Source of the DNA: an uncultured Prevotellaceae bacterium
GTDB lineage: Bacteria; Bacteroidota; Bacteroidia; Bacteroidales; Muribaculaceae
Assembly (NCBI GenBank): GCA_946410125.1
Contig: CAMJZF010000002.1
Span: 1-51,855, forward strand
DNA: 51,855 bases
Direction: 5' to 3'
This document shows, in pieces, positions 13,317-25,351 of this stretch (position 1 is the stretch's first letter; every line of letters begins with the position of its first letter). The translations under genes and the position numbers were made by a program. The notes below the pieces were generated by a model. The model was not told the origin of the DNA and did no database searches. It was given only the letters and a program-made list of their open reading frames with translations.

Positions 13317-15173
13317 CTACATATACAGCTTGCTGTTCTCGAAATCAACTTCACTTTCAAGCTGGTTGACGAACTCGTCGAGGACATCACGCTCCACGTC
13401 GCCGAGGTTAAACTCCTTCTCAGCATCTTTGCGTATCAGCTCTATCCACTCACGGCGAGCAGCCACATAGTCGGCATGAACTCGTTCCACAGCTTCGGCA
13501 TCGAGGTTGTCGATTCCATAGTAGTCGAGAATCATGCGGTAGGTCCATGTCCAGCGATACTCGTTGTAGTTGTTGTGGATGGCAACAAAGCGGTCGAGCA
13601 CGTCATTGATTGACGTGAGTGTGCCGTTGATGACGTCGTCGACAAGGCGCTTCTCCTCGCTTGCAGGCAAAAGCATACCCGAGAGGTCAACCCATGGGCC
13701 TTCGCCGGCATGTGAAGCCGGCACTACCGGTAGGTGACGCTTGAGCACCGCCCCCATGTAGATGCGCAATGCGAGGTCGTAGTAGCGAATGCCCTTGCGC
13801 AGCAACGGTGCCTTGATGACGTACTCATGGTAGTTGTAGGTACTCACATTGTCGCCGCTGGCTGCACGCAAATTCTCCAGGATTTTCTTTCCCCTGAGCA
13901 CCTCGCTGATAGAGAAAGGACTCAACCAGTCGAAATTGACAATGCTCTTGCGATCGGCAATACGACGCTTGTCGCGGTTGGGCCACTTGCGTATGTCACG
14001 GTAGAGTCCCACAGTGGCAAAGTTGCGTCCCGGCACCAGATACATGGTGTCGCTGTAGGCGATAAGGTAGGAGAATGGCAGGTCGCGAGTGTCGGGGTGA
14101 TACATCAGTTTGCCAAATAGCACGCTGAAGGTGCCAATGTTGGCTGGCATCAACAGGTAAGCACCGCTTGCTGTCTTGCTTCCACGCTCGAGTATGCCGT
14201 AGTGCATGGGCCCCATTTTGTAGGCATGGTTGCTGAAGTTGGTAGCAGAGCCGGCATTGTAGAAAGAGAACATGCCGCCAATGAGCAGCGAACTCTTGTG
14301 GTGACTCACGGTGAATGGTCCGCAGAAGGCAGCGCAAGCCTCACCGTTAGACATGTAACTATTGGCAAAGAACACGCTGCTTGCCGCTGTAAATCCGTTA
14401 CTTAGCTCACATGCCTCTCCCACCATGCAGTCGACAATTTTCACGCTGTTGATGATTTTGGAGCCACCGCTGATTATCGAGTTTTCGCAAATCACTCCAG
14501 TCCCAATAGTTATGGGATTGTTGATTGTGCTGCTGATAGTGCAGTTACTCAGTCGAGACCCTCCGCTAATGTGGCATCCGTCACCGATGACCGAATTGGT
14601 GATTTCGTTGGTGTTGGTGATTATCACATTATTGCCAATGGTGCTGCACTCGGGTCGCGAGTCGTTGATGAACTTGTCGACGAGGGCGTTCAAAGCCTTG
14701 TTGAAAGCCTTGTTGCCAAACTGCTTGACCATCAAAGCCGCTAATTGGCTGTTCAGTCCGTCAAAGAGTAGCAGATTGCCCTTTCCCACTTCGTTGAGCA
14801 CCGAGATTAGAATGCCTTGGCCATAGTTGGCGTCAGGGCGTGTCTCGATGGTGCACACGTTGGAAATGTGACATTGGTTGCCGACGATTACATTATTCAT
14901 GAAATTGCCGATGTTCTCAATGAGACAGTTGTCGCCAATGGTTACATTGCGCAGGGTGGCGTTGACGATTCCACAACGCTTCACAAATCCATCGCTCACT
15001 TCGATAGAACCAGTGCAACTGCCCAGGTGAGCCGTGCCATAGAACGTTACACGGTGCAGGCAATGTGGGTCAAATTGGTCGGTTACATATACGTTATGCC
15101 AGTTCTCGGCCTGGCATCCATTCATCTCAAGTGTTGATATTTCTTCCCTTTTCAGGTTGCGATAGGCGTTCAT
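13317..15173 (-). CDS. DUF4954 family protein with hexapeptide-like beta-helix
   Basis: This 618-residue protein matches the DUF4954 family found mainly in Bacteroidetes. The first half has tandem hexapeptide-like turns (for example NATLRNVTIGDNCLIENIG and GNNVIITNTNEITNSVIGDG), indicating a left-handed beta-helix like that of sugar acyl- and nucleotidyltransferases. The second half is mixed alpha/beta with no motif I can assign. There is no signal peptide, so it is probably cytoplasmic. Substrate and reaction are unknown; a nucleotide-sugar or acyl-transfer role is only an analogy. It lies downstream of the glp regulator on the same strand, and related palindromes lie on both sides. Confidence 0.85.
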   Translation of the reverse strand: MNAYRNLKREEISTLEMNGCQAENWHNVYVTDQFDPHCLHRVTFYGTAHLGSCTGSIEVSDGFVKRCGIVNATLRNVTIGDNCLIENIGNFMNNVIVGNQCHISNVCTIETRPDANYGQGILISVLNEVGKGNLLLFDGLNSQLAALMVKQFGNKAFNKALNALVDKFINDSRPECSTIGNNVIITNTNEITNSVIGDGCHISGGSRLSNCTISSTINNPITIGTGVICENSIISGGSKIINSVKIVDCMVGEACELSNGFTAASSVFFANSYMSNGEACAAFCGPFTVSHHKSSLLIGGMFSFYNAGSATNFSNHAYKMGPMHYGILERGSKTASGAYLLMPANIGTFSVLFGKLMYHPDTRDLPFSYLIAYSDTMYLVPGRNFATVGLYRDIRKWPNRDKRRIADRKSIVNFDWLSPFSISEVLRGKKILENLRAASGDNVSTYNYHEYVIKAPLLRKGIRYYDLALRIYMGAVLKRHLPVVPASHAGEGPWVDLSGMLLPASEEKRLVDDVINGTLTSINDVLDRFVAIHNNYNEYRWTWTYRMILDYYGIDNLDAEAVERVHADYVAARREWIELIRKDAEKEFNLGDVERDVLDEFVNQLESEVDFENSKLYM

Positions 15174-15370: not shown

Positions 15371-16135
15371 TTACTGGGCGATGATGAGAGTGATGCCGTG
15401 GTCGTTGATCAGGTTGATCACGTTTTGGCTTACTCCAGCGTCGGTAATAATCACGTCGATGTCCTCGATGTTTCCTATCTTGGCAAAGCCTCGTTTTCCA
15501 AACTTGCTTGAGTCGGCCAGGACGATAACCTTTTGTGCCGCCCTTATCATCTGCTGGTTGAGTTCGGCCTCTCTCATGTCGGTAGTGGTAAATCCAAAGT
15601 CGAAATCAATGCCGTCGACACCGATAAAAAGTTTGGAGAATGAGCAGTTTTCAAGAATCTGCTTGCTGTATTGCCCCACAACCGAAAGGCTGCTGTGCCT
15701 CAACATCCCTCCCAGCTGGATGATGTCGTTGTTTTCGTCTTGCGATAGAATCTCACTTACTGTCAACGACGCGCTCACAACGGTAAGCCTGTGAATGGGC
15801 TTAATGTTTCGTGCCAGAGCATGGACGGTCGTGCCCGAGGCGATGATGATGGAGTCGTCACGCGTGATGAGTTTGGCGGCTTCTCGTCCTATGGCATCCT
15901 TTTGTTCAACGGCTATTTTCTCTTTCTCATTCACCGACCGGTTGTAGGAGAAAGGATTAATGATGATGGCCTTACCGTGACTGCGATAAAGCTTGTTGGC
16001 TTGTTCGAGTTCGGTGAGGTCTTTCCTTATTGTTACTGTCGAGACGTTGAGCAGCTCGGCGAGTACTGTAACAGTAATAGCTTCCTCCTTTAGTAGTATT
16101 TCCAAGATTTGAGCCTGGCGTTTTTTCTTAATCAT
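15371..16135 (-). CDS. glpR: DeoR-family regulator, probable glycerol-3-phosphate repressor GlpR
   Basis: This 254-residue protein has the DeoR helix-turn-helix at about residues 5-57 (ITVTVLAELLNVSTVTIRKD) and the C-terminal sugar-phosphate sensing DeoRC domain (DDSIIIASGTTVHALA, LGGMLRHSSLSVVGQYS, LFIGVDGID). Such proteins generally repress neighbouring catabolic genes until a phosphorylated effector binds. It is divergent from glpABC across a 389-bp intergenic region, which supports glycerol 3-phosphate as effector. The start MIKKKRQAQILEILL is standard for the family. The function as GlpR is inferred from context; the family call is firm. Confidence 0.85.
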   Translation of the reverse strand: MIKKKRQAQILEILLKEEAITVTVLAELLNVSTVTIRKDLTELEQANKLYRSHGKAIIINPFSYNRSVNEKEKIAVEQKDAIGREAAKLITRDDSIIIASGTTVHALARNIKPIHRLTVVSASLTVSEILSQDENNDIIQLGGMLRHSSLSVVGQYSKQILENCSFSKLFIGVDGIDFDFGFTTTDMREAELNQQMIRAAQKVIVLADSSKFGKRGFAKIGNIEDIDVIITDAGVSQNVINLINDHGITLIIAQ

Positions 16136-16176
16136 ACAATTACTATATATAAATAATGTGTTAATGACTTTTGGAA

Positions 16177-16193
16177 GAAACTGTGGAAGTTTC
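16177..16193. promoter_or_regulatory. Candidate operator at the regulator's own promoter
   Basis: GAAACT and AGTTTC are perfect inverted copies separated by 5 bp, centred near the predicted start of the regulator transcript. The right arm continues as AGTTTCGTT, sharing TTTCGTT with the site downstream of the glpA promoter. Autoregulation is inferred. Confidence 0.4.
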
Positions 16194-16197
16194 GTTG

Positions 16198-16228
16198 CAA
16201 AAGTATATTATTTCTATGAAAGAAGCAA
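16198..16228 (-). promoter_or_regulatory. Promoter of the glp regulator gene
   Basis: On the minus strand TTG (16228-16226), 20 bp, TACTTTTG (16205-16198). Predicted start near 16191, leader of about 56 nt. Confidence 0.7.
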
Positions 16229-16378
16229 ATTATTTGTATTTTTTTCAAAAAGAACATTGAAGATGGTGATTTAATATAAAAAGAGAAACATTGGTCAGGT
16301 AAAATTTATGGATTAAATGTACAAATTTATATAATTTTAAATAAAAGGCGATTTTTTTTTGAAAAAAACGTGATTTTT

Positions 16379-16409
16379 TTTGTTTATTAAAAAAATGTAC
16401 CTACATTTG
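16379..16409 (+). promoter_or_regulatory. Promoter of the glpABC operon
   Basis: TTTG (16379-16382), 19 bp, TACATTTG (16402-16409), an excellent Bacteroidetes promoter match. Predicted start near 16416, leader of about 109 nt. The 170 bp between the two divergent promoters are extremely AT-rich with long T and A tracts. Confidence 0.75.
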
Positions 16410-16430
16410 TTGCGAAATAAAAAAATACCC

Positions 16431-16445
16431 ATTTCGTTTCGAAAT
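16431..16445. promoter_or_regulatory. Candidate GlpR operator in the glpA leader
   Basis: ATTTCG and CGAAAT are inverted copies around TTT, about 15 bp after the predicted start, a good roadblock position. DeoR-family boxes are often built on TTTCG-type half-sites, and TTTCGTT also occurs at the regulator's own promoter. The binding protein is inferred. Confidence 0.4.
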
Positions 16446-16480
16446 TATTTTTAAATCTAAGATACCATAGTCATTGAGCA

Positions 16481-16501
16481 AAAGCTCTGAAAAAGAGCTT
16501 T
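16481..16501 (+). promoter_or_regulatory. Hairpin in the glpA 5' leader
   Basis: AAAGCTCT and AGAGCTTT form a perfect 8-bp stem around GAAAA, ending 23 nt before the glpA ATG. No T-tract follows, so it is more likely an mRNA-stabilising or translation-affecting stem than a terminator. Confidence 0.5.
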
Positions 16502-16524
16502 ACCTTAAGGCAAACATGATTTAA

Positions 16525-18150
16525 ATGAATACAGTAAACAACAATAATTATGACGTGATTGTGATTGGTGGAGGTATCACCGGAGCAGGAACAGCTCGAG
16601 ATTGCGCCATGAGAGGCTTGAAAGTGCTTCTTGTTGAGAGGCATGATTTCTCAACTGGCGCTACAGGTCGCAACCACGGCTTGCTACACAGTGGCGCTCG
16701 CTATGCGGTTACCGACCATGAGAGCGCCACTGAATGTATCAAGGAGAACATGATTCTGCGCAAGATAGCGCGTCACTGCGTAGAAGAGACCGAGGGTCTG
16801 TTCATTACACTTCCTGAGGATGACCTCAACTTCCAGTCGACCTTTGTGCAGAAGTGTAACGATGCCGGCATTCGTGCCGAGGTCATCGACCCCGAGCTTG
16901 CCCGAATCATGGAGCCAGCTGTAAATCCAGAGTTGATAGGAGCAGTGAAAGTGCCTGACGCGTCGGTCGACCCGTTCCGCCTTACCATGGCCAATGTGCT
17001 CGATGCGAAGCTTCATGGAGCCGATGCACTTGTCTATCACGAGGTGGTGGATGTGCTGGTAGAGCAAAACCGTGTTGTGGGTGTGAAACTGCGTAATAAC
17101 CATAACGGAGAAACCTTTAACGCTTATTCTAAAATCACTATCAATGCTGCCGGAATTTGGGGCACCCTTGTAGCCCAGATGGCAGGAGTGAAAATCAATA
17201 TGTTCCCCGCTAAGGGGTCGCTACTCATATTTGGTCACCGCGTAAACAACATGGTGATAAATCGTTGTCGCAAGCCTGCAAATGCCGACATCCTCGTTCC
17301 CGACGATGCGGTGTGCGTGATAGGCACTACCAGCGACCGCGTTCCCATTGAGACATGTGATGACATGCGCGTTACACCCGAAGAGGTGGAGCTGCTGCTC
17401 GCCGAGGGCATGAAACTTGCTCCCTCATTAGGCACAACCCGCATCCTGCGAGCCTATGCCGGCGTGCGTCCACTGGTCGCCAGCGATGATGATCCCAGCG
17501 GTCGCAGCATAAGTCGCGGAATTGTTACCCTTGACCACGAGAAACGTGACGGCCTTGCAGGACTGCTTACTATCACCGGCGGCAAGATGATGACCTATCG
17601 CCTCATGGCCGAAGAAGTGACCGACCTCGCCTGCGAGAAGCTCGGAGTAACTAAGAGGTGTGAAACTGCAACCACTCCGCTGCCTGGCAGTGAGCCAATT
17701 GAGAAAGAGAAAAAAATCAGCTTCTCTCAAAAAGCGGCAGCAGGTCGTCATGGAACCCTTAACAGAGATGTTGAGCGTGGTGACGTTACAAGCGACGCAC
17801 TGGTGTGTGAGTGTGAGGGCGTGAGCGTGGGAGAGGTGAGATATGCCGTTACCAAGCTTCATGTTCACAACCTTATTAACCTGCGTCGTCGCACCCGTGT
17901 GGGCATGGGAACCTGCCAGGGTGAGCTGTGTGCATGCCGCGCCGCAGGAGTGATGTGTGGCGATGATGAGGGCGCGCAACGAGCAATCAACGACCTGTCG
18001 GGCTTCATGAATGAGCGATGGAAGGGTCAGCAGCCGGTTGCCTGGGGCGACAACCTTGCCGAGGCGCAACTTACTGCCAAGATATACCAAGGCATGCTTG
18101 GTGTTGACAAATTAGCCAATGAAAGGAGGGTGGAATACTATGAAATTTGA
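16525..18150 (+). CDS. glpA: Anaerobic glycerol-3-phosphate dehydrogenase subunit A
   Basis: This catalytic FAD subunit oxidises sn-glycerol 3-phosphate to dihydroxyacetone phosphate and passes electrons to quinone through GlpB and GlpC. It has 541 residues, as in E. coli. The dinucleotide-binding motif VIVIGGGITGAGTARD starts at residue 11, and the DFSTGATGRNHGLLHSGARY stretch (41-60) is nearly identical to characterised GlpA. The C-terminus has a BFD-like [2Fe-2S] domain with C428, C430, C464 and C469 (CECEG and GTCQGELCAC). It is the first gene of glpABC and overlaps glpB by 11 bp. Identity is firm. Confidence 0.97.
   Translation: MNTVNNNNYDVIVIGGGITGAGTARDCAMRGLKVLLVERHDFSTGATGRNHGLLHSGARYAVTDHESATECIKENMILRKIARHCVEETEGLFITLPEDDLNFQSTFVQKCNDAGIRAEVIDPELARIMEPAVNPELIGAVKVPDASVDPFRLTMANVLDAKLHGADALVYHEVVDVLVEQNRVVGVKLRNNHNGETFNAYSKITINAAGIWGTLVAQMAGVKINMFPAKGSLLIFGHRVNNMVINRCRKPANADILVPDDAVCVIGTTSDRVPIETCDDMRVTPEEVELLLAEGMKLAPSLGTTRILRAYAGVRPLVASDDDPSGRSISRGIVTLDHEKRDGLAGLLTITGGKMMTYRLMAEEVTDLACEKLGVTKRCETATTPLPGSEPIEKEKKISFSQKAAAGRHGTLNRDVERGDVTSDALVCECEGVSVGEVRYAVTKLHVHNLINLRRRTRVGMGTCQGELCACRAAGVMCGDDEGAQRAINDLSGFMNERWKGQQPVAWGDNLAEAQLTAKIYQGMLGVDKLANERRVEYYEI
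18124..18130 (+). promoter_or_regulatory. Strong Shine-Dalgarno for glpB
   Basis: AGGAGGG lies 9 bp before the ATG at 18140, inside the 3' end of glpA. Such a perfect Shine-Dalgarno is unusual in Bacteroidetes and decides the glpB start against the ATG at 18119, which would put the motif inside the gene. Confidence 0.7.
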
Positions 18151-19381
18151 TGTCATAATAATAGGAGGCGGACTGAGTGGTCTCACAGCAGGCATCGCAC
18201 TTGCCGAGGCAGGAAAAGATGTGGCACTTGTGAGTGCCGGTCAAAGCACCCTTCATTTTGGTGGAGGTTCGCTCGACCTGTTAGGCTATGATGAGCAAGG
18301 CAACGAGGTTAAGAACCCGCTTGACGCCATTTCCAATCTTAATGGAAACCATCCTTACAAAAAAATAGAAGACGTGTCGAGGTTAGCTGGCGTGGCGAAA
18401 AAGGTGCTCGAGAGAGCAGGAATCGCCACTGCCGGCGAAGCCAACCACAACCACTGGCGCGTGTCGCCAATAGGCGCCCTGCTGCCCACTTGGCTGAGCC
18501 TTGAAGGCATGGCAACAGTAGAAGATGCCGGCACTATGCCATGGAAACGAGTGGCACTCGTCAATGTCGTCAACTTTTTAGATTTTCCCACTAAATTCCT
18601 TGCCGCCGGCTTGCGCAATCGTGGTGTGGAAGTTGATGTGAAAGCATTCACTCTACCTGAGCTGGAGCAGTTGCGCAAGAGCCCAACCGAGATGCGCTCG
18701 ACCAATATAGCAAAAGTTATAGAGACCAACAACCTTATTGCAAAGATAGCAAATGAGGTGAACGATATTGCGGGTGGCTATGACATGGTGCTTCTTCCGG
18801 CAGTGTTGGGAATTGGCAGTAGCGAAACAAGCAGGCATCTGCTCAAAGCCATTAAAGTGCCGGCAAACTATGTGGCAACCTTGCCACCATCGGTTCCCGG
18901 CGTGAGAATGCAGACGTTGCTTCGCAAGCGCTTTACTGCCCTTGGCGGAACATTCTTCACAGGCGATCAAGTGATAGAAGGTAACTTTGAAGGAGACACA
19001 CTCAAGGGAGTAAAAACCGCGAAACTCGATGGTACCACTCTTGAGGCCGACAACTTTGTGCTTGCTACCGGTTCATTTATGAGCCGTGGTCTTGTTGCCG
19101 ACTATAACCATGTGTATGAGCCGGCCCTTGGCGTTGACGTTGAAGACCTTGGCCTTGACCGTAATACTTGGTCTAAGATTGATGTTACCGAATCTCAGCC
19201 CTACATGGAAATGGGCGTAAAGACCGATTCCTGTCTGCGTTGCCAACGTGCCGGCAATACTATAGCCAACCTGTATGCTGCAGGTTCGATACTGGGAGGA
19301 CACAACAGCATCAAACGCCTTGACTCGGCCGGCGTTGACATGCTCACAGCATTGCAGGCCGTTAATAATATATTAAAATAA
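18140..19381 (+). CDS. glpB: Anaerobic glycerol-3-phosphate dehydrogenase subunit B
   Basis: This 413-residue flavoprotein mediates electron transfer between GlpA and the membrane-associated GlpC. It begins MKFDVIIIGGGLSGLTAGIA, an FAD-binding Rossmann motif, followed by LHFGGGSLDLLG, typical of GlpB. Near the C-terminus, SCLRCQRAGNTIANLYAAGS is the conserved second FAD-contact region and includes a cysteine pair. The start at 18140 is preferred because AGGAGGG is correctly spaced before it. It overlaps the glpA stop by 11 bp and ends 11 bp before glpC, so the three genes are translated from one message. Confidence 0.95.
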   Translation: MKFDVIIIGGGLSGLTAGIALAEAGKDVALVSAGQSTLHFGGGSLDLLGYDEQGNEVKNPLDAISNLNGNHPYKKIEDVSRLAGVAKKVLERAGIATAGEANHNHWRVSPIGALLPTWLSLEGMATVEDAGTMPWKRVALVNVVNFLDFPTKFLAAGLRNRGVEVDVKAFTLPELEQLRKSPTEMRSTNIAKVIETNNLIAKIANEVNDIAGGYDMVLLPAVLGIGSSETSRHLLKAIKVPANYVATLPPSVPGVRMQTLLRKRFTALGGTFFTGDQVIEGNFEGDTLKGVKTAKLDGTTLEADNFVLATGSFMSRGLVADYNHVYEPALGVDVEDLGLDRNTWSKIDVTESQPYMEMGVKTDSCLRCQRAGNTIANLYAAGSILGGHNSIKRLDSAGVDMLTALQAVNNILK

Positions 19382-19392
19382 CACTGACGATT

Positions 19393-20646
19393 ATGGCAAC
19401 CGAAACACAGACCCAGAATGTGAGCGTCAACAACTTTGAGCAGTGCTTGAAATGCTCGATTTGCACAGTCTATTGCCCTGTATCGGCAGTAACACCATTA
19501 TATCCCGGTCCCAAGCAGGCGGGTCCCGACGGCGAGCGTTATCGCCTGAAGGACAAAGTCTTCTTTGATGAGTCCTTAAAGATGTGCCTCAACTGCAAGC
19601 GCTGTGAGGTGGCATGCCCCAACGATGTGCACATTGGCGACATCATCCAGGCTGCACGCATCAAGTACAGCACTCACAAGCCCAGTTTGCGCGACATGAT
19701 GCTCGCTAATACCGACCTGGTGGGCACTATGGCTTCGCCCTTTGCCCCCATTGCCAACCCCGTGCTTAAGCTTAAGCCCATGAAGGCTGTGCTGCACAGT
19801 GTGATGGGCATTGACAAGCACCGCACCTTCCCCGACTACTCAAACCGCAAGTTTGAGTCTTGGTTCAAGAAGGAAGCAGCGCCCAATCAGGATCAGTACA
19901 GCAAGCACGTGAGCTACTTCCATGGCTGTTATGTAAACTATAACTATCCTCAGCTTGGCAAAGACATGGTGAAGGTGATGAATGCAGTGGGCTATGGCGT
20001 GCATTTGCTCGAAAAAGAGAAATGCTGCGGTGTGGCTCTCATCGCCAACGGCATGTCGAAGCAGGCAAAGCGCCAGGGCGAGGTTAACATGTCGTCGATG
20101 CGTAAAGCCATTGTCGAAGGCCATGTAGTGCTGACATCAAGTTCGACCTGCACATTCACCATGCGTGATGAGTATGACCACCTTCTTGGCATTGACAATC
20201 ATGACGTGCGCGATAGTATAAGCCTTGCTACTCGATTCTTGTTCCAACTCATTGAGAAGGGTGAGATTAAGCTTGAGTTCCGCAAGGACTTTCACAAGCG
20301 TGTGGCCTATCACAGCGCATGCCACATGGAGCGCATGGGATGGGTGCCATACAGCACTCGCTTGTTGCGCATGATTCCAGGCTTGGAGTTTGTAATGCTT
20401 GAGTCGCAATGCTGCGGCATAAGCGGCACCTACGGCTTCAAGAAGGAGAATTATGAGCGTTCGCAAGCAATTGGCAAAGGTCTGTTTGACCAAATCAATG
20501 ATGTGGCTCCCGACTGTGTAGCCACCGACTGCGAGACCTGCAAATGGCAAATCGAAATGTCGACCGGCGTGCCCGTTATGAATCCAATATCGATTATTGC
20601 CGAGGCACTTGATGTGGAGGCAACAATTATAAGTAATAAGAAATAA
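19393..20646 (+). CDS. glpC: Anaerobic glycerol-3-phosphate dehydrogenase subunit C
   Basis: This 417-residue iron-sulfur subunit anchors GlpAB to the membrane and delivers electrons to the quinone pool. Two [4Fe-4S] motifs lie at C18-C21-C24-C28 (CLKCSICTVYCP) and C65-C68-C71-C75 (CLNCKRCEVACP). Two CCG domains follow, with C211-C212 (KCCGVAL) and C340-C341 (CCGISGTYGFKKE), as in heterodisulfide-reductase-like subunits. It starts 11 bp after glpB. The next gene, glpT, is 166 bp further on and separated by a hairpin. Confidence 0.96.
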   Translation: MATETQTQNVSVNNFEQCLKCSICTVYCPVSAVTPLYPGPKQAGPDGERYRLKDKVFFDESLKMCLNCKRCEVACPNDVHIGDIIQAARIKYSTHKPSLRDMMLANTDLVGTMASPFAPIANPVLKLKPMKAVLHSVMGIDKHRTFPDYSNRKFESWFKKEAAPNQDQYSKHVSYFHGCYVNYNYPQLGKDMVKVMNAVGYGVHLLEKEKCCGVALIANGMSKQAKRQGEVNMSSMRKAIVEGHVVLTSSSTCTFTMRDEYDHLLGIDNHDVRDSISLATRFLFQLIEKGEIKLEFRKDFHKRVAYHSACHMERMGWVPYSTRLLRMIPGLEFVMLESQCCGISGTYGFKKENYERSQAIGKGLFDQINDVAPDCVATDCETCKWQIEMSTGVPVMNPISIIAEALDVEATIISNKK

Positions 20647-20688
20647 ATATAGGCTTTTTTCACACGCATTTTATCCTGCTCCTTCCAG

Positions 20689-20713
20689 CCCCTTCTAATT
20701 GGTTTAGAGGGGG
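20689..20713 (+). other. Intercistronic hairpin between glpC and glpT
   Basis: CCCCTTCTAA and TTAGAGGGG pair with one wobble around a short loop. No T-tract follows. It may stabilise the glpABC message or partly uncouple glpABC from glpT expression. No TAnnTTTG box with good spacing is seen in the 166-bp gap. Confidence 0.4.
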
Positions 20714-20812
20714 AACAAAGGAGAAAGAGTTCTCAGGAAGCGAGAGTTTCAAAAGATGGAATAAAGTGAAACAACATATAATATTAACAGTTAACAATTA
20801 ATAGATTTAAAA

Positions 20813-22219
20813 ATGGGTAAATTTTTAGCTCCACCGGCTTATAAACCGGAAAGAACAGGACCAGAGGCCGATGCCGAATACCGCCGACTGAGGTGGCAGG
20901 TGTTCATTGGCATCTTCATTGGCTATGCCGGCTTCTATCTTGTTAGAAAGAACCTGTCGATGGCAATCCCAATGCTGGAGCCATTTGGTTTCACCAAGGG
21001 AGAGCTTGGCACGGCATTGGCAATGAATGCTCTTGCCTATGGTTTCTCTAAGTTTGTGATGGCAAGCGTGAGCGACCGCAGTAATGCACGTCGTTTCTTG
21101 CCGCTGGGACTAATCCTCTCGGCAGTTGCCATGATGTTCATGATCATCCCCATCCAGTACTTCAGCGAGCAAAAGGCACTTGCCATTTTCCTGATGGGTG
21201 CCTTTAACTTCCTAGTAGGTTGGTTCCAGGGAATGGGCTGGCCTCCTTGCGGACGTGTGATGACCCGCTGGTTCTCGATTAAAGAACGCGGCACGTGGAT
21301 GAGTGTGTGGAACTGCGCCCACAACGTGGGTGGTGCTCTCGTTGGCCCTATGGCCGCCTACGGCGCGATGTGGTTTGGCAGCTGGTTCTACGGAAATGAT
21401 GAGAAGATGTACTTCCTTATTGGAACCTATGCGTTCCCTGCGGCAGTAGCCATTCTTATCGCCATTATTGCTTATGTTCTCATTCGCGACACACCACAAT
21501 CGTGTGGTCTTCCCTCAATCGAGAAGTGGAGCGGCTCGGCATCTAAGAATTATGACGAGAAGAAGAGTGAGCAGACACTTAGCGTGAAAGAAATCTTCAA
21601 GATAGTTCTTTCTAATAAGTTCTTGTGGTTCATTGCCCTTGCCAACTCCTTTATCTATATGGTTCGCTACGGATGTCTTGACTGGGCTCCAACAATATTG
21701 AGCAGTCAGGGCGTAGACATTAAGAGCGCCGGATGGGCTTATTTTGCCTATGAGTTTGCTGCCATTCCAGGAACAATCTTCTGTGGTTGGCTCAGTGACA
21801 AGGTGTTCAAGGGCCGTCGTGCCATGCCAACCATGCTTTTCATGGCAGTCATCATCATCGCCATTGTAATCTACTGGCAGAACATGAACAACTTGTGGGT
21901 TGTGGTTAGTTGCCTTATCGCCATTGGTTTCCTCATCTATGGCCCGGTGATGCTTATTGGTGTTCAGGCACTTGACCTTGCTCCAAAGAATGCAGCCGGC
22001 ACAGCCGCCGGTCTTACCGGCTTCATGGGCTATGTGCTTGGTACCGCTATCCTCGCCAACACATTGCTCGGTTTCGTTGCCGACAACTGGGGCTGGTCGT
22101 GGGTATTCATCCTGCTGATGATAGCCTGTGTACTCGCAATCTTCTTCATGGCATTGACCTATAAGGAGGAACAGTATCTTGTTGCCGACCGCAAAGGCGA
22201 GAACGTGGAGAAGAAATAA
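20813..22219 (+). CDS. glpT: Glycerol-3-phosphate transporter, MFS (GlpT)
   Basis: This inner-membrane antiporter of the organophosphate:phosphate family exchanges cytoplasmic phosphate for glycerol 3-phosphate. The 468 residues form about 12 membrane segments. Family signatures are WQVFIGIFIGYAGFYLVRKN near residue 30, SKFVMASVSDRSNARRFLP, and the amphipathic MGWPPCGRVMTRWFSIKERG stretch between segments 4 and 5. LIGVQALDLAPKNAAGTAAG near 380 is the conserved C-domain signature of the family. Its position after glpABC and before the glycerophosphodiesterase makes glycerol 3-phosphate the likely substrate. Confidence 0.94.
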   Translation: MGKFLAPPAYKPERTGPEADAEYRRLRWQVFIGIFIGYAGFYLVRKNLSMAIPMLEPFGFTKGELGTALAMNALAYGFSKFVMASVSDRSNARRFLPLGLILSAVAMMFMIIPIQYFSEQKALAIFLMGAFNFLVGWFQGMGWPPCGRVMTRWFSIKERGTWMSVWNCAHNVGGALVGPMAAYGAMWFGSWFYGNDEKMYFLIGTYAFPAAVAILIAIIAYVLIRDTPQSCGLPSIEKWSGSASKNYDEKKSEQTLSVKEIFKIVLSNKFLWFIALANSFIYMVRYGCLDWAPTILSSQGVDIKSAGWAYFAYEFAAIPGTIFCGWLSDKVFKGRRAMPTMLFMAVIIIAIVIYWQNMNNLWVVVSCLIAIGFLIYGPVMLIGVQALDLAPKNAAGTAAGLTGFMGYVLGTAILANTLLGFVADNWGWSWVFILLMIACVLAIFFMALTYKEEQYLVADRKGENVEKK

Positions 22220-22281
22220 CCTCTACTAAATAAAAAAAGAAATATATATTTTATATTAACAATTAAATCAAATTAAATCGT

Positions 22282-23904
22282 ATGTTTAAAAATCTCATTC
22301 GATTAGGCGTTGCCAGCTTGGCTCTGGTGGCCCTTACAACCTCTTGCTCCAAGGAGCAGCAGTTTACCAGTGAGAAGACCGATGCCAAGCGTGTTGAGGT
22401 GCAAGTGCTCAACGCCGACCTGGCCAAGGTTCGTGACTATGTTCCCCTCTATGCAGTGATTGCTCACCGCGGTTCCACTTTCTGGGCTCCTGAGGAGACC
22501 GAGAGCTCATGGCGATGGGCACGTGAGATGGGTGCCGACTACCTTGAGAGCGACGTTCAGTGCACCAAGGACGGTATCGTTCTTGCCAACCATGATGAGA
22601 ATCTCAAGCGCACAACCAACATCGAGAACGTCTTCTCTGAGAACGTTCCCACCAGCCGCGTGGCATTCTACATGAGCCTTGGTTTCTCTAAAGCCGATGC
22701 CGAGGCACAGTATGGCCGCGACATGGCGGCATTCCGCCCCTTCTACGCACTTAGCTACTACTATGCCGAGCTCCTCATGCTCGATGCCGGCTCTTGGTTC
22801 AACGAGACCAGCCTGGAGCAGTCTCGTCCAAGCTTTGAGGCAAGCGAGACCGGTTCGTTCAGCGGTGGTAAGATTGTCTACAGCAACGGTCAATACATCA
22901 GTGCTCTTCAAGACCAAATTGCCTATGCCGAAGGCAAGCACTTGATTCGCGACGCCAATGGTCGCCGTGTGCTCAGCTATAAGGTAAAAGACGAGTACCA
23001 GGGCATGACACTTGAGCAAATCTATAACGCAATCAAGGCTAAGGGTCAGTACAATGCCAAGTATATGGACTTCATCGAGTATGATTTCGCCAACGCTTAC
23101 GAGCCCGACCCACAGGACACTGGCAACCGCCCAGGTATCTATGTAGAGTTCAAAGAAAGCTGGCTCAACCCTGGAAATATGGAGCAGCGTGTGTATGACG
23201 TGCTTAGCGAGTGCAACTGGAACATCATCGAGAAGCCTGCTACTGAGACTGCCTTCTACAAGGGTGGAAAAGTTAACGTGGGCAATACCAACGGTAAGGT
23301 AATCCTGCAAACCTTCTCGTTCGACGCTCTGCGCCGTGCCAACGACGTCTTCAAGGGCCGCATCCCCATGTGCTACCTGCTGTGGATTAGCGAGCCAGCC
23401 TATGCTACCGATATCGCCATCGACGACCCAACAGGCTATGCCGCCTTCATCAAGTGGGCTCAAGACAATGGTGCTCACATCATTGGTCCCGCCATTAGCG
23501 GTGCTCCCAACAACTATCCTGAGATGAACGCACCCTGGCAGGCCTACATGATTCGCAAGAGTGGCATGATTAACCATCCTTACTCGTTCGACTCTTGGGC
23601 TCAGATGTGCAAGTACATGGGCTACTACAACTACGGCCTTGAGACCGAGTTTGACGACCTCCTTCGTCTTGAGATTCCTGCTACAGCCTATACTACAACA
23701 AGCTATCCAAGCAGTGTGCCTGTATACATGGACGGTTTCTTTACCAACCGCACTGAGATGTCGCTCAAGTATATGATTGAGAACGGCTTCCGTGGCAACT
23801 CTAAGCTCCCCAACCCATTCCATCCGGGTCAGACCTACGACAACTCACAGGCCAACGTTACAGTTCCCGATGCAGTAGAAACCCTTAAGAGACTGGGTTA
23901 CTAA
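22282..23904 (+). CDS. glpQ: Glycerophosphodiester phosphodiesterase lipoprotein, GlpQ-like
   Basis: This enzyme hydrolyses deacylated phospholipids such as glycerophosphocholine to glycerol 3-phosphate and an alcohol. The signal peptide ends in a lipobox (ALTTSC, lipid on C22), so it is an envelope lipoprotein rather than a soluble periplasmic enzyme like E. coli GlpQ. GDPD catalytic residues are visible: H62-R63 (IAHRGS), E71 (APEET), E89 and D91 (YLESDVQ), and H104 (NHDENL). At 540 residues it is much longer than E. coli GlpQ (about 358), with an insertion of roughly 120 residues around 130-250 that I cannot assign. It lies 62 bp after glpT. Inner- or outer-leaflet location cannot be decided. 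Confidence 0.92.
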   Translation: MFKNLIRLGVASLALVALTTSCSKEQQFTSEKTDAKRVEVQVLNADLAKVRDYVPLYAVIAHRGSTFWAPEETESSWRWAREMGADYLESDVQCTKDGIVLANHDENLKRTTNIENVFSENVPTSRVAFYMSLGFSKADAEAQYGRDMAAFRPFYALSYYYAELLMLDAGSWFNETSLEQSRPSFEASETGSFSGGKIVYSNGQYISALQDQIAYAEGKHLIRDANGRRVLSYKVKDEYQGMTLEQIYNAIKAKGQYNAKYMDFIEYDFANAYEPDPQDTGNRPGIYVEFKESWLNPGNMEQRVYDVLSECNWNIIEKPATETAFYKGGKVNVGNTNGKVILQTFSFDALRRANDVFKGRIPMCYLLWISEPAYATDIAIDDPTGYAAFIKWAQDNGAHIIGPAISGAPNNYPEMNAPWQAYMIRKSGMINHPYSFDSWAQMCKYMGYYNYGLETEFDDLLRLEIPATAYTTTSYPSSVPVYMDGFFTNRTEMSLKYMIENGFRGNSKLPNPFHPGQTYDNSQANVTVPDAVETLKRLGY

Positions 23905-23955
23905 TAATTATAATTTAGTTTTATTACACATTAAATTGAATAAGACAATATAATC

Positions 23956-25293
23956 ATGAAGAAATATATAATTTTGCCAGCTCTCTTACTTTTTGCACTG
24001 GGAGCAGCAGCGCAGGACTTCGACAACGATCCAACCCTGCAACTTGAGAAAAAAGATGCCAAATTCACCATTGGAGCCCGCTTCATGGCCGATGCTGCAA
24101 CCTATCACAGCGACTTTACACCGTTGCAGAGCGGAGCTTCAATTAGCGATGCCCGCATCCGCACATCGTTCACCTACAAGAACTGGTATCTCTATGCTGA
24201 CTTTGGTTTTGGTGGAGGAAAGTTTTCACAGAAGAACATCTTTGCACAGTGGAGCACTGTAAATGAAAAAGGTGAATCGCACTCGATTAAGGCCGGTTAC
24301 TACAATGACCCTGCCGGTTCAATGGCACGCAACACCTCGCTTGGCAGCTATCACTTCATTTCTCGTCCCGGATCGAGCTATGCACTTGGCGAGGGACGTG
24401 AGCTTGGTGTAACTTACAAGTACAACAGCGACAAGTTCATGGCCTATCAGGGCGTGTTCACCGAGAACCAGTATAACAAAATCAAGGCTGGTTTCAATGG
24501 CGTGACCGTTGCCGGTCGTTACCTGGTGCGTCCCGTGTATGATTCTAACCAGACACTGCACATTGGCGTGAGCGGACGTTTTGCCAAGCTTGGAGGCGGA
24601 GAGGTGTTCAAGAACATCCTCAAGAAGACCTATCACATGGGACAGACTCTTGAAACCTATGTTGACGAGGACGAGCAGTTTGTAAACGCCGACCTGGAGT
24701 GGGCCAACACCGTTACCAACCTGGGAGCTGAGCTTCTCTATCACAACAACCGTTTCTTCATTCGTGGTGAATACTTCTACAAGCACGTTAACAAGAGCCG
24801 CGACACCTATTCACTCATGATCGATGCTCAGGACAACATCGACGGCTGGGGCTCGCTCGAAGCATGGGAGAATGCCAACAAGCTGCGCTCTAACAACTTC
24901 CATGGTGGCTATGTTGAGGCTGGTGTCATCCTCTTTGGCAACGGTTATCGCTACAACAAGGCCGACGGTCTGCTGGGCGGTCTCAACGGCAAGGCTCTGG
25001 AGCTCGTGGCACGCTACAACTACACAGGCCTGAACGACCTCACCGATGGTGAGTACTTCAACGCTGGTCGTGGTCACTACTATGCAGCCGGCTATATGGA
25101 AGACTGGCCAGGAACAGGCGCTACCAGCGTGGGTGGTGGTAATCTTCACAGTGCTACCATTGGACTGAACTACTCATTCAACAAGTATGTTCAACTGATG
25201 GTGGACTACACCTACCACAAGCTCACCAGCGACTATTATCCCAACGACAAGAACTTCCACGTGGGCCAAGCCCGTGTTCAGTTCACATTCTAA
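23956..25293 (+). CDS. Outer-membrane porin of the phosphate-selective (OprP/OprO) type
   Basis: This 445-residue protein has a signal peptide (ILPALLLFALGAAAQ, cleavage after about residue 20). The rest is rich in alternating aromatic and polar beta-strands and ends ARVQFTF, the terminal phenylalanine signal for BAM insertion. Strands such as WYLYADFGFGGGKFSQKNIF and FIRGEYFYKHVNKSR resemble phosphate-selective porins. It starts 51 bp after the phosphodiesterase gene and is followed by a strong terminator, so it is the last gene of the glp transcript. Its operon position suggests it admits glycerol 3-phosphate or glycerophosphodiesters. The class is probable; the substrate is inferred from context only. 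Confidence 0.8.
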   Translation: MKKYIILPALLLFALGAAAQDFDNDPTLQLEKKDAKFTIGARFMADAATYHSDFTPLQSGASISDARIRTSFTYKNWYLYADFGFGGGKFSQKNIFAQWSTVNEKGESHSIKAGYYNDPAGSMARNTSLGSYHFISRPGSSYALGEGRELGVTYKYNSDKFMAYQGVFTENQYNKIKAGFNGVTVAGRYLVRPVYDSNQTLHIGVSGRFAKLGGGEVFKNILKKTYHMGQTLETYVDEDEQFVNADLEWANTVTNLGAELLYHNNRFFIRGEYFYKHVNKSRDTYSLMIDAQDNIDGWGSLEAWENANKLRSNNFHGGYVEAGVILFGNGYRYNKADGLLGGLNGKALELVARYNYTGLNDLTDGEYFNAGRGHYYAAGYMEDWPGTGATSVGGGNLHSATIGLNYSFNKYVQLMVDYTYHKLTSDYYPNDKNFHVGQARVQFTF

Positions 25294-25313: not shown

Positions 25314-25351
25314 AAAAAAAGGCAAATTGCTCAGGCAGTTTGCCTTTTTTT
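25314..25351 (+). terminator. Terminator of the glp operon
   Basis: A7-GGCAAA and TTTGCC-T7 pair around a 12-base loop that itself can form TTGC/GCAG. This strong intrinsic terminator lies 20 bp after the porin stop. Confidence 0.93.

Follow-up and report, generated by a model that had tools for sequence, protein, structure and literature searches.

A locus that probably joins glycerol 3-phosphate oxidation to the outer membrane

Why would a porin and a phosphodiesterase lipoprotein follow directly on the genes for anaerobic glycerol 3-phosphate oxidation? The question is raised by a seven-gene locus (positions 15371-25293) in the window, the whole 51,855-nucleotide stretch of DNA analysed here, which is contig C2 of the genome of an uncultured Prevotellaceae bacterium (G000; 84% complete, 143 contigs). 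We think it likely that the locus forms an outer-membrane-to-quinone route for sn-glycero-3-phosphodiesters, which would probably let Bacteroidales cut glycerol phosphate from degraded phospholipids or similar compounds outside the cell, import it and oxidise it without oxygen. The core of this route is like the known E. coli pathway, to which the outer-membrane part seems to be an addition not described before. The seven genes are:

15371-16135, minus strand: repressor of the DeoR family, transcribed away from glpA ('GlpR' by position; PF00455/PF08220)
16525-18150, plus strand: glpA, anaerobic glycerol-3-phosphate dehydrogenase subunit A (TIGR03377, 758.9 bits, cut-off 552.8)
18119-19381, plus strand: glpB (TIGR03378, 396 bits, cut-off 174.15)
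19393-20646, plus strand: glpC, Fe-S membrane-linking subunit (TIGR03379, 597 bits, cut-off 279.9)
20813-22219, plus strand: glpT, organophosphate:phosphate antiporter (TIGR00712, 541.7 bits, cut-off 632.55)
22282-23904, plus strand: GlpQ-like glycerophosphodiesterase (GDPD) lipoprotein with insertions (PF03009)
23956-25293, plus strand: outer-membrane porin, OprO/OprP-like fold (predicted structure)

This gene content had been proposed in an earlier note made from the sequence alone; its order and strands are confirmed, and GlpA, GlpB and GlpC all score above the curated NCBIfam cut-offs. The glpA and glpB genes overlap, followed by gaps of 11 bp (glpB-glpC), 166 bp (glpC-glpT), 62 bp (glpT-GDPD) and 51 bp (GDPD-porin). 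For GlpT, TIGR00712 is the best model, though the score stays below its cut-off; the protein is related to E. coli GlpT (1pw4; E 1e-138, alignment over residues 4-448), and its R45, H165 and R269, which we take to be the substrate-site residues, face identical residues there. The regulator is best matched among NCBIfam equivalogs by AgaR, at 213.5 bits against a cut-off of 260, so that 'GlpR' is a name by position only.

Conservation of the lipoprotein-porin pair

If the locus is one unit, the porin and the phosphodiesterase should travel with glpABC. Among 119 genomes of the family, GlpC was above cut-off in 39 and the porin orthologue (more than 250 bits) occurred in 14, all within these 39. 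A full-length GDPD orthologue was found in 12 genomes, every one of them GlpC-positive (association of GDPD with GlpC: Fisher test 4e-7, a value that ignores kinship), and in all 12 it adjoins the porin; G028 and G066 have the porin without a GDPD orthologue. The pair adjoins glp genes in eight of the 12 genomes and lies on another contig in G016, G039, G068 and G085. One member of the window's own genus, G109, has GlpC and GlpT and not the pair.

A wider scan, from which the best 80 of 97 loci were analysed, was made via the porin; its presence in these loci is therefore by construction, many of the loci are closely related (34 non-redundant porins remain at about 88%) and the counts ignore kinship. 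By their record titles the loci come from Muribaculaceae, Prevotella and relatives, Barnesiella, Bacteroides, and Alistipes/Rikenellaceae. Ruminant assemblies are included, and several of them are among the records closest in porin identity, which carry the labels Porphyromonadaceae, Prevotellaceae or Muribaculaceae; other records belong to what are presumably gut, oral and vaginal species. GDPD lies directly upstream of the porin in all 80 loci, with a median gap of 44 bp. The order glpA-B-C-T-GDPD-porin is uninterrupted in 56 (52 with an adjacent glpR, four without an adjacent glpR call), glpT-GDPD-porin is found in 11, and the pair without glpT directly before it in 13, five of these at a contig edge; L084 lacks a glpT call between its glpC and GDPD genes. 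glpC lies within 61 loci, and 16 of the remaining 19 have a GlpC above cut-off elsewhere in the genome, which brings the count to 77 of 80. Even diverged homologues of the two proteins (28-35% identity) are again paired, in L034 (G039), L044 (G083) and L139 (Bacteroides clarus). The conservation half of the refuting condition set in the earlier note thus did not refute it: the two genes are adjacent in 12 of 12 family genomes and 80 of 80 loci and travel with glpABC and glpT, and the view of the locus as one functional unit is supported.

A GlpQ-type enzyme and a predicted OprO/OprP-type porin

What do the two outer-membrane candidates do? The esterase belongs to PF03009 (E 5.1e-18), scores far below the NCBIfam GDPD equivalog cut-offs and has B. 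subtilis GlpQ as its nearest solved structure. Ten residues equivalent to the substrate and metal (Ca2+) residues of GlpQ named in part of PMC7086022 (H62, R63, E89, D91, H104, E289, Q343, F345, Y434 and F487; E289 and F487 assigned by motif, not by alignment) are kept in 28 of 28 rows of an alignment of the window protein with 27 of the 76 long GDPDs (28 non-redundant; L084 was dropped for its over-extended start). Their retention supports sn-glycerol 3-phosphate as the probable product. The lipobox cysteine, Cys22 as judged by eye, is invariant, and at least two acidic residues follow it at +2 to +5 in 26 of the 28 alignment rows (hand count), the exceptions being the window and L065. Two more GDPD-family proteins are encoded elsewhere in the window genome.

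The porin matches nothing in Pfam-A, even at E 10, nor in NCBIfam, and PDB sequence searches with it and with the diverged porins returned nothing significant. PF07396 thus does not recognise it directly, whereas its predicted structure, on which 16 long strands were counted, has the OprP/OprO fold. The distant homologue L034 does match PF07396; in a profile comparison, L034 together with L044 reaches a probability of 100% (E 1.9e-50). The suggested kinship to OprP/OprO rests on this predicted fold and on L034, a correction to the earlier description of a phosphate-selective-type porin. Residues conserved at 90% or more in the predicted strands comprise 14 Arg/Lys against 7 Asp/Glu, a plain count over an alignment of 34 of the 80 porins plus that of the window. 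A fold of the OprP/OprO type would suit an anionic solute. A second porin copy of 49% identity, without a GDPD neighbour, lies about 6 kb from the main locus in L039 (G025:C2:53604-54881).

Regulatory features and boundaries

Two further features frame the genes from glpA to the porin:

16402-16445, plus strand: putative promoter/operator, read from the sequence, with a TAnnTTTG-type element at 16402-16409 that we take to be a -7 element, GCGAAA at 16412-16417 and the palindrome ATTTCGTTTCGAAAT at 16431-16445
25314-25351, plus strand: intrinsic terminator at the locus end, 17-bp stem and U tract (-23 kcal/mol, z -4.9)

The operator word [AG]CGAAA was picked by eye from the sequences before scoring, so its P values are not blind. 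Upstream of glpA it occurs on average 2.36 times per 250 bp, with at least two copies in 72% of 58 loci, against a mean of 0.27 and at least two copies in 3.5% upstream of 284 control genes. Where the pair lies on a separate contig from glpABCT, the word precedes GDPD in three (G068), four (G039), four (G085) and two copies (G016), and the glpA promoters of the same genomes carry three, one, three and one, respectively. This backs, without proving, a shared regulon.

The strong terminator claimed earlier is borne out, its stability being matched by none of 200 shuffles; window-wide, terminators were found at chance level (11 against 12.4 expected) and sigma-70 promoters little above it (19 against 13.8 expected, standard deviation 3.5). 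A conserved gene 3' of the porin was considered and rejected: the genes that follow on the same strand differ between loci, with recR, der and alanine dehydrogenase among them as read by eye, which suggests that the porin gene is the last of the operon. Co-transcription of the locus we infer only from the gaps and the operator-like word. At L037:8646-12065 (G037), two open reading frames (306 and 800 amino acids, the second on the opposite strand) split the operon between glpC and glpT. Upstream of the regulator, the window encodes a DUF4954/DUF6819 protein (13317-15173).

Proposed route from the outer membrane to menaquinone

We propose that the GlpQ-like lipoprotein would be anchored in the outer membrane, possibly facing outward, where its conserved active site would hydrolyse sn-glycero-3-phosphodiesters to sn-glycerol 3-phosphate and an alcohol; the candidate substrates are the headgroup diesters left when phospholipids are deacylated, or the ends of poly-glycerol-phosphate. 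The porin, going by its predicted fold, would pass the anion or, should the enzyme face the periplasm, the diester still uncut. Judged by its family, GlpT would then swap glycerol 3-phosphate for phosphate across the inner membrane, and GlpABC would oxidise it to dihydroxyacetone phosphate, delivering electrons to menaquinone and from there probably to fumarate reductase. The GlpABC reaction and electron route are established for these families. The divergent DeoR-type repressor may act on the operon through an operator that overlaps the glpA promoter, as the motif statistics suggest. In those genus members with GlpC in which no glycerol kinase was found, catabolism through GlpABC would be fed mainly by imported glycerol 3-phosphate.

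No GlpK was found in the window genome at its 84% completeness, nor in the same-genus GlpC carriers G040, G060 and G109 (96-98% complete). Across the family, GlpK is above cut-off in ten of 119 genomes, all ten GlpC-positive; in G054, which has no GlpC over cut-off, the match falls just short (572.6 against 590.35). The earlier claim that both kinase and facilitator are absent agrees with the lack of a GlpK match and needs amending for the channel, since one MIP channel was found in the window genome (G000:C17), which is aquaporin-Z-like (best named equivalog aquaporin Z, not a glycerol facilitator, at 205 against a cut-off of 256). Fumarate reductase was rejected as part of the unit, and the link drawn earlier to the fumarate reductase 6 kb away is not supported: none of the 80 loci contains frdAB, and in 57 of them the sequence extends at least 9.5 kb past the porin. 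Among the matches listed in a literature search (titles and abstract starts of open-licence PMC papers), no description of a GDPD-porin glp locus was found, and the passages of PMC10434189 that were read do not show it.

Evidence against the route and alternative explanations

Several observations weigh against this proposal. GlpK is above cut-off in four of the 12 GDPD-porin genomes, and absence of glycerol use is not supported as a general rule. L127 (Prevotellamassilia timonensis) and L133 carry the pair with no GlpC over cut-off and no GlpT found in their genomes, and the genome of L109 has GlpT and no GlpC over cut-off. The start of the window lipoprotein, C-S-K-E-Q-Q, fits published surface-export signals only partly (PMC5080379, in part). 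When 16 separately headed operons were scored, at least two copies of the operator word preceded five, one copy preceded one and none preceded ten (P 0.026, the word having been chosen after inspection); the wordless operons include L127, L128, L133 and six Prevotella-type glpT operons (L113, L114, L116, L117, L118, L121), where for L114 and L118 the upstream stretch scored is coding or mis-started. The shared word does not reach most Prevotella-type operons. A single transcript is not assured either, because the glpC-glpT gap (window 20640-20815) can fold into a long hairpin (-37.8 kcal/mol, z -2.4, no U tract), perhaps a processing or attenuation element.

Could the same genes serve another purpose? 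One alternative overlaps with our proposal in all but substrate: the enzyme would trim the poly(sn-glycerol-3-phosphate) wall teichoic acid of Gram-positive neighbours, with the rest of the route unchanged. The enzyme of the nearest solved structure, B. subtilis GlpQ, hydrolyses wall teichoic acid exolytically and cleaves phospholipid headgroup diesters as well (PMC7086022, in part), and S. aureus GlpQ is reported to use both substrate types (PMC9229137, a review, in part). Because of the breadth of the B. subtilis enzyme, glycerophosphocholine or a host or dietary source is not singled out; of the substrate origin put forward earlier, sn-glycerol 3-phosphate as product remains, while glycerophosphocholine and a host or dietary origin are not supported. 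A surface esterase could reach a polymer, but no sequence feature favours a polymer over small diesters and the large barrel insertions could help or hinder one, and we regard teichoic-acid scavenging as rather unlikely.

Another alternative, in which the pair serves chiefly to provide phosphate and an OprP-like porin lets it through, appears improbable to us. The OprO/OprP-like fold would suit such a role, and in L127 the pair lies 28 bp after the alkaline phosphatase PafA (L127:6597-8213; NF042991, 729.9 bits, cut-off 650) in a genome that yielded no GlpC over cut-off and neither GlpT nor GlpK; there, phosphate is the likely gain. PafA stands beside the pair in one lineage only, however, GlpC is present in 77 of the 80 genomes and 56 loci run uninterrupted from glpA to the porin. 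Moreover, GlpT exchanges phosphate outward, and GlpT-GlpABC therefore yields carbon and electrons, not net phosphate. We also give little credence to periplasmic recycling of the cell's own phospholipid headgroups, with the porin as a general channel. E. coli GlpQ is periplasmic, and the partial match of the window lipoprotein to the export-signal rule would fit such a location; but the acidic residues after the cysteine in 26 of 28 rows are like the SDDDD signal of B. fragilis, and internal recycling would not need a porin so strictly paired with the enzyme.

Comparison with known systems

How does the proposed glycerophosphodiester route compare with known systems? In the E. coli glp regulon, glpTQ is divergent from glpABC. 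The locus shares with it a GlpQ-type esterase, a GlpT-type antiporter, the GlpABC dehydrogenase and a DeoR-family repressor, and differs in that all genes from glpA to the porin run in one direction, a dedicated OprO/OprP-like porin is present, the lipoprotein esterase has roughly double the size of the GlpQ core, and the genus members with the pair (G000, G040, G060) yielded no glpK, the MIP channel found of the window genome being aquaporin-Z-like. Unlike the GlpQ of B. subtilis and S. aureus (PMC7086022 and PMC9229137, both in part), the enzyme is a lipoprotein with about 190 extra residues in insertions and is paired with a porin. That porin is in turn distinct from Pseudomonas aeruginosa OprP/OprO, with 16% identity, no direct PF07396 match and different partner genes. 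Polysaccharide utilisation loci of Bacteroidetes combine an exported enzyme, outer-membrane uptake, inner-membrane transport and a regulator, and the locus assembles the same elements; unlike them, it has no SusC/SusD family among its genes and a porin instead.

If the route is real, many Bacteroidales have a dedicated path for glycerophosphodiesters, nutrients that a view of the order centred on polysaccharides leaves aside. The path would feed anaerobic respiration, and in some of these bacteria would do so without glycerol kinase. The turnover of phospholipids (or of teichoic acid) would then be tied to menaquinone-dependent energy conservation and to choline or ethanolamine being released, and a function would be given to a family of porins that goes unrecognised by Pfam and NCBIfam.

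A possible second capture module

Does GlpABC serve only this pair? It is conceivable, though doubtful, that GlpABC serves as a hub for capture modules at the outer surface that can replace one another. One module would tentatively consist of GlpT, the GlpQ-like lipoprotein and the OprO/OprP-like porin; the other, put forward with the same reserve, of a second GlpT-family transporter, a HAD-IIA phosphatase, another Porin_O_P porin and a propeller-like protein. The last, named for blade-like repeats read by eye and not by a tool, has a signal-peptide-like start (by eye), is strongly conserved and matches nothing by sequence in Pfam, NCBIfam or the PDB; it would be an unrelated enzyme that releases phosphorylated glycerol from a different extracellular substrate. 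It occurs in 13 of the 119 family genomes, 12 of them GlpC-positive and none with a GDPD orthologue, and its gene is found at L041:12158-13123 (G066) and in L042, L045, L048, L053, L055, L059, L118, L121 and L128. Exclusion between the modules is not strict: both stand in three of the 80 wider loci (L118, L121, L128), and the propeller-like gene accompanies a window-type porin, without GDPD, in G028 and G066. Within one genus, both modules follow glpT at the same position (G000 and G109). A HAD-IIA (phosphoglycolate-phosphatase-like) gene and a second GlpT-family transporter (about 31% to GlpT) lie near glpABC in 19 of the 40 loci L025-L064, for example at L049:4658-5524.

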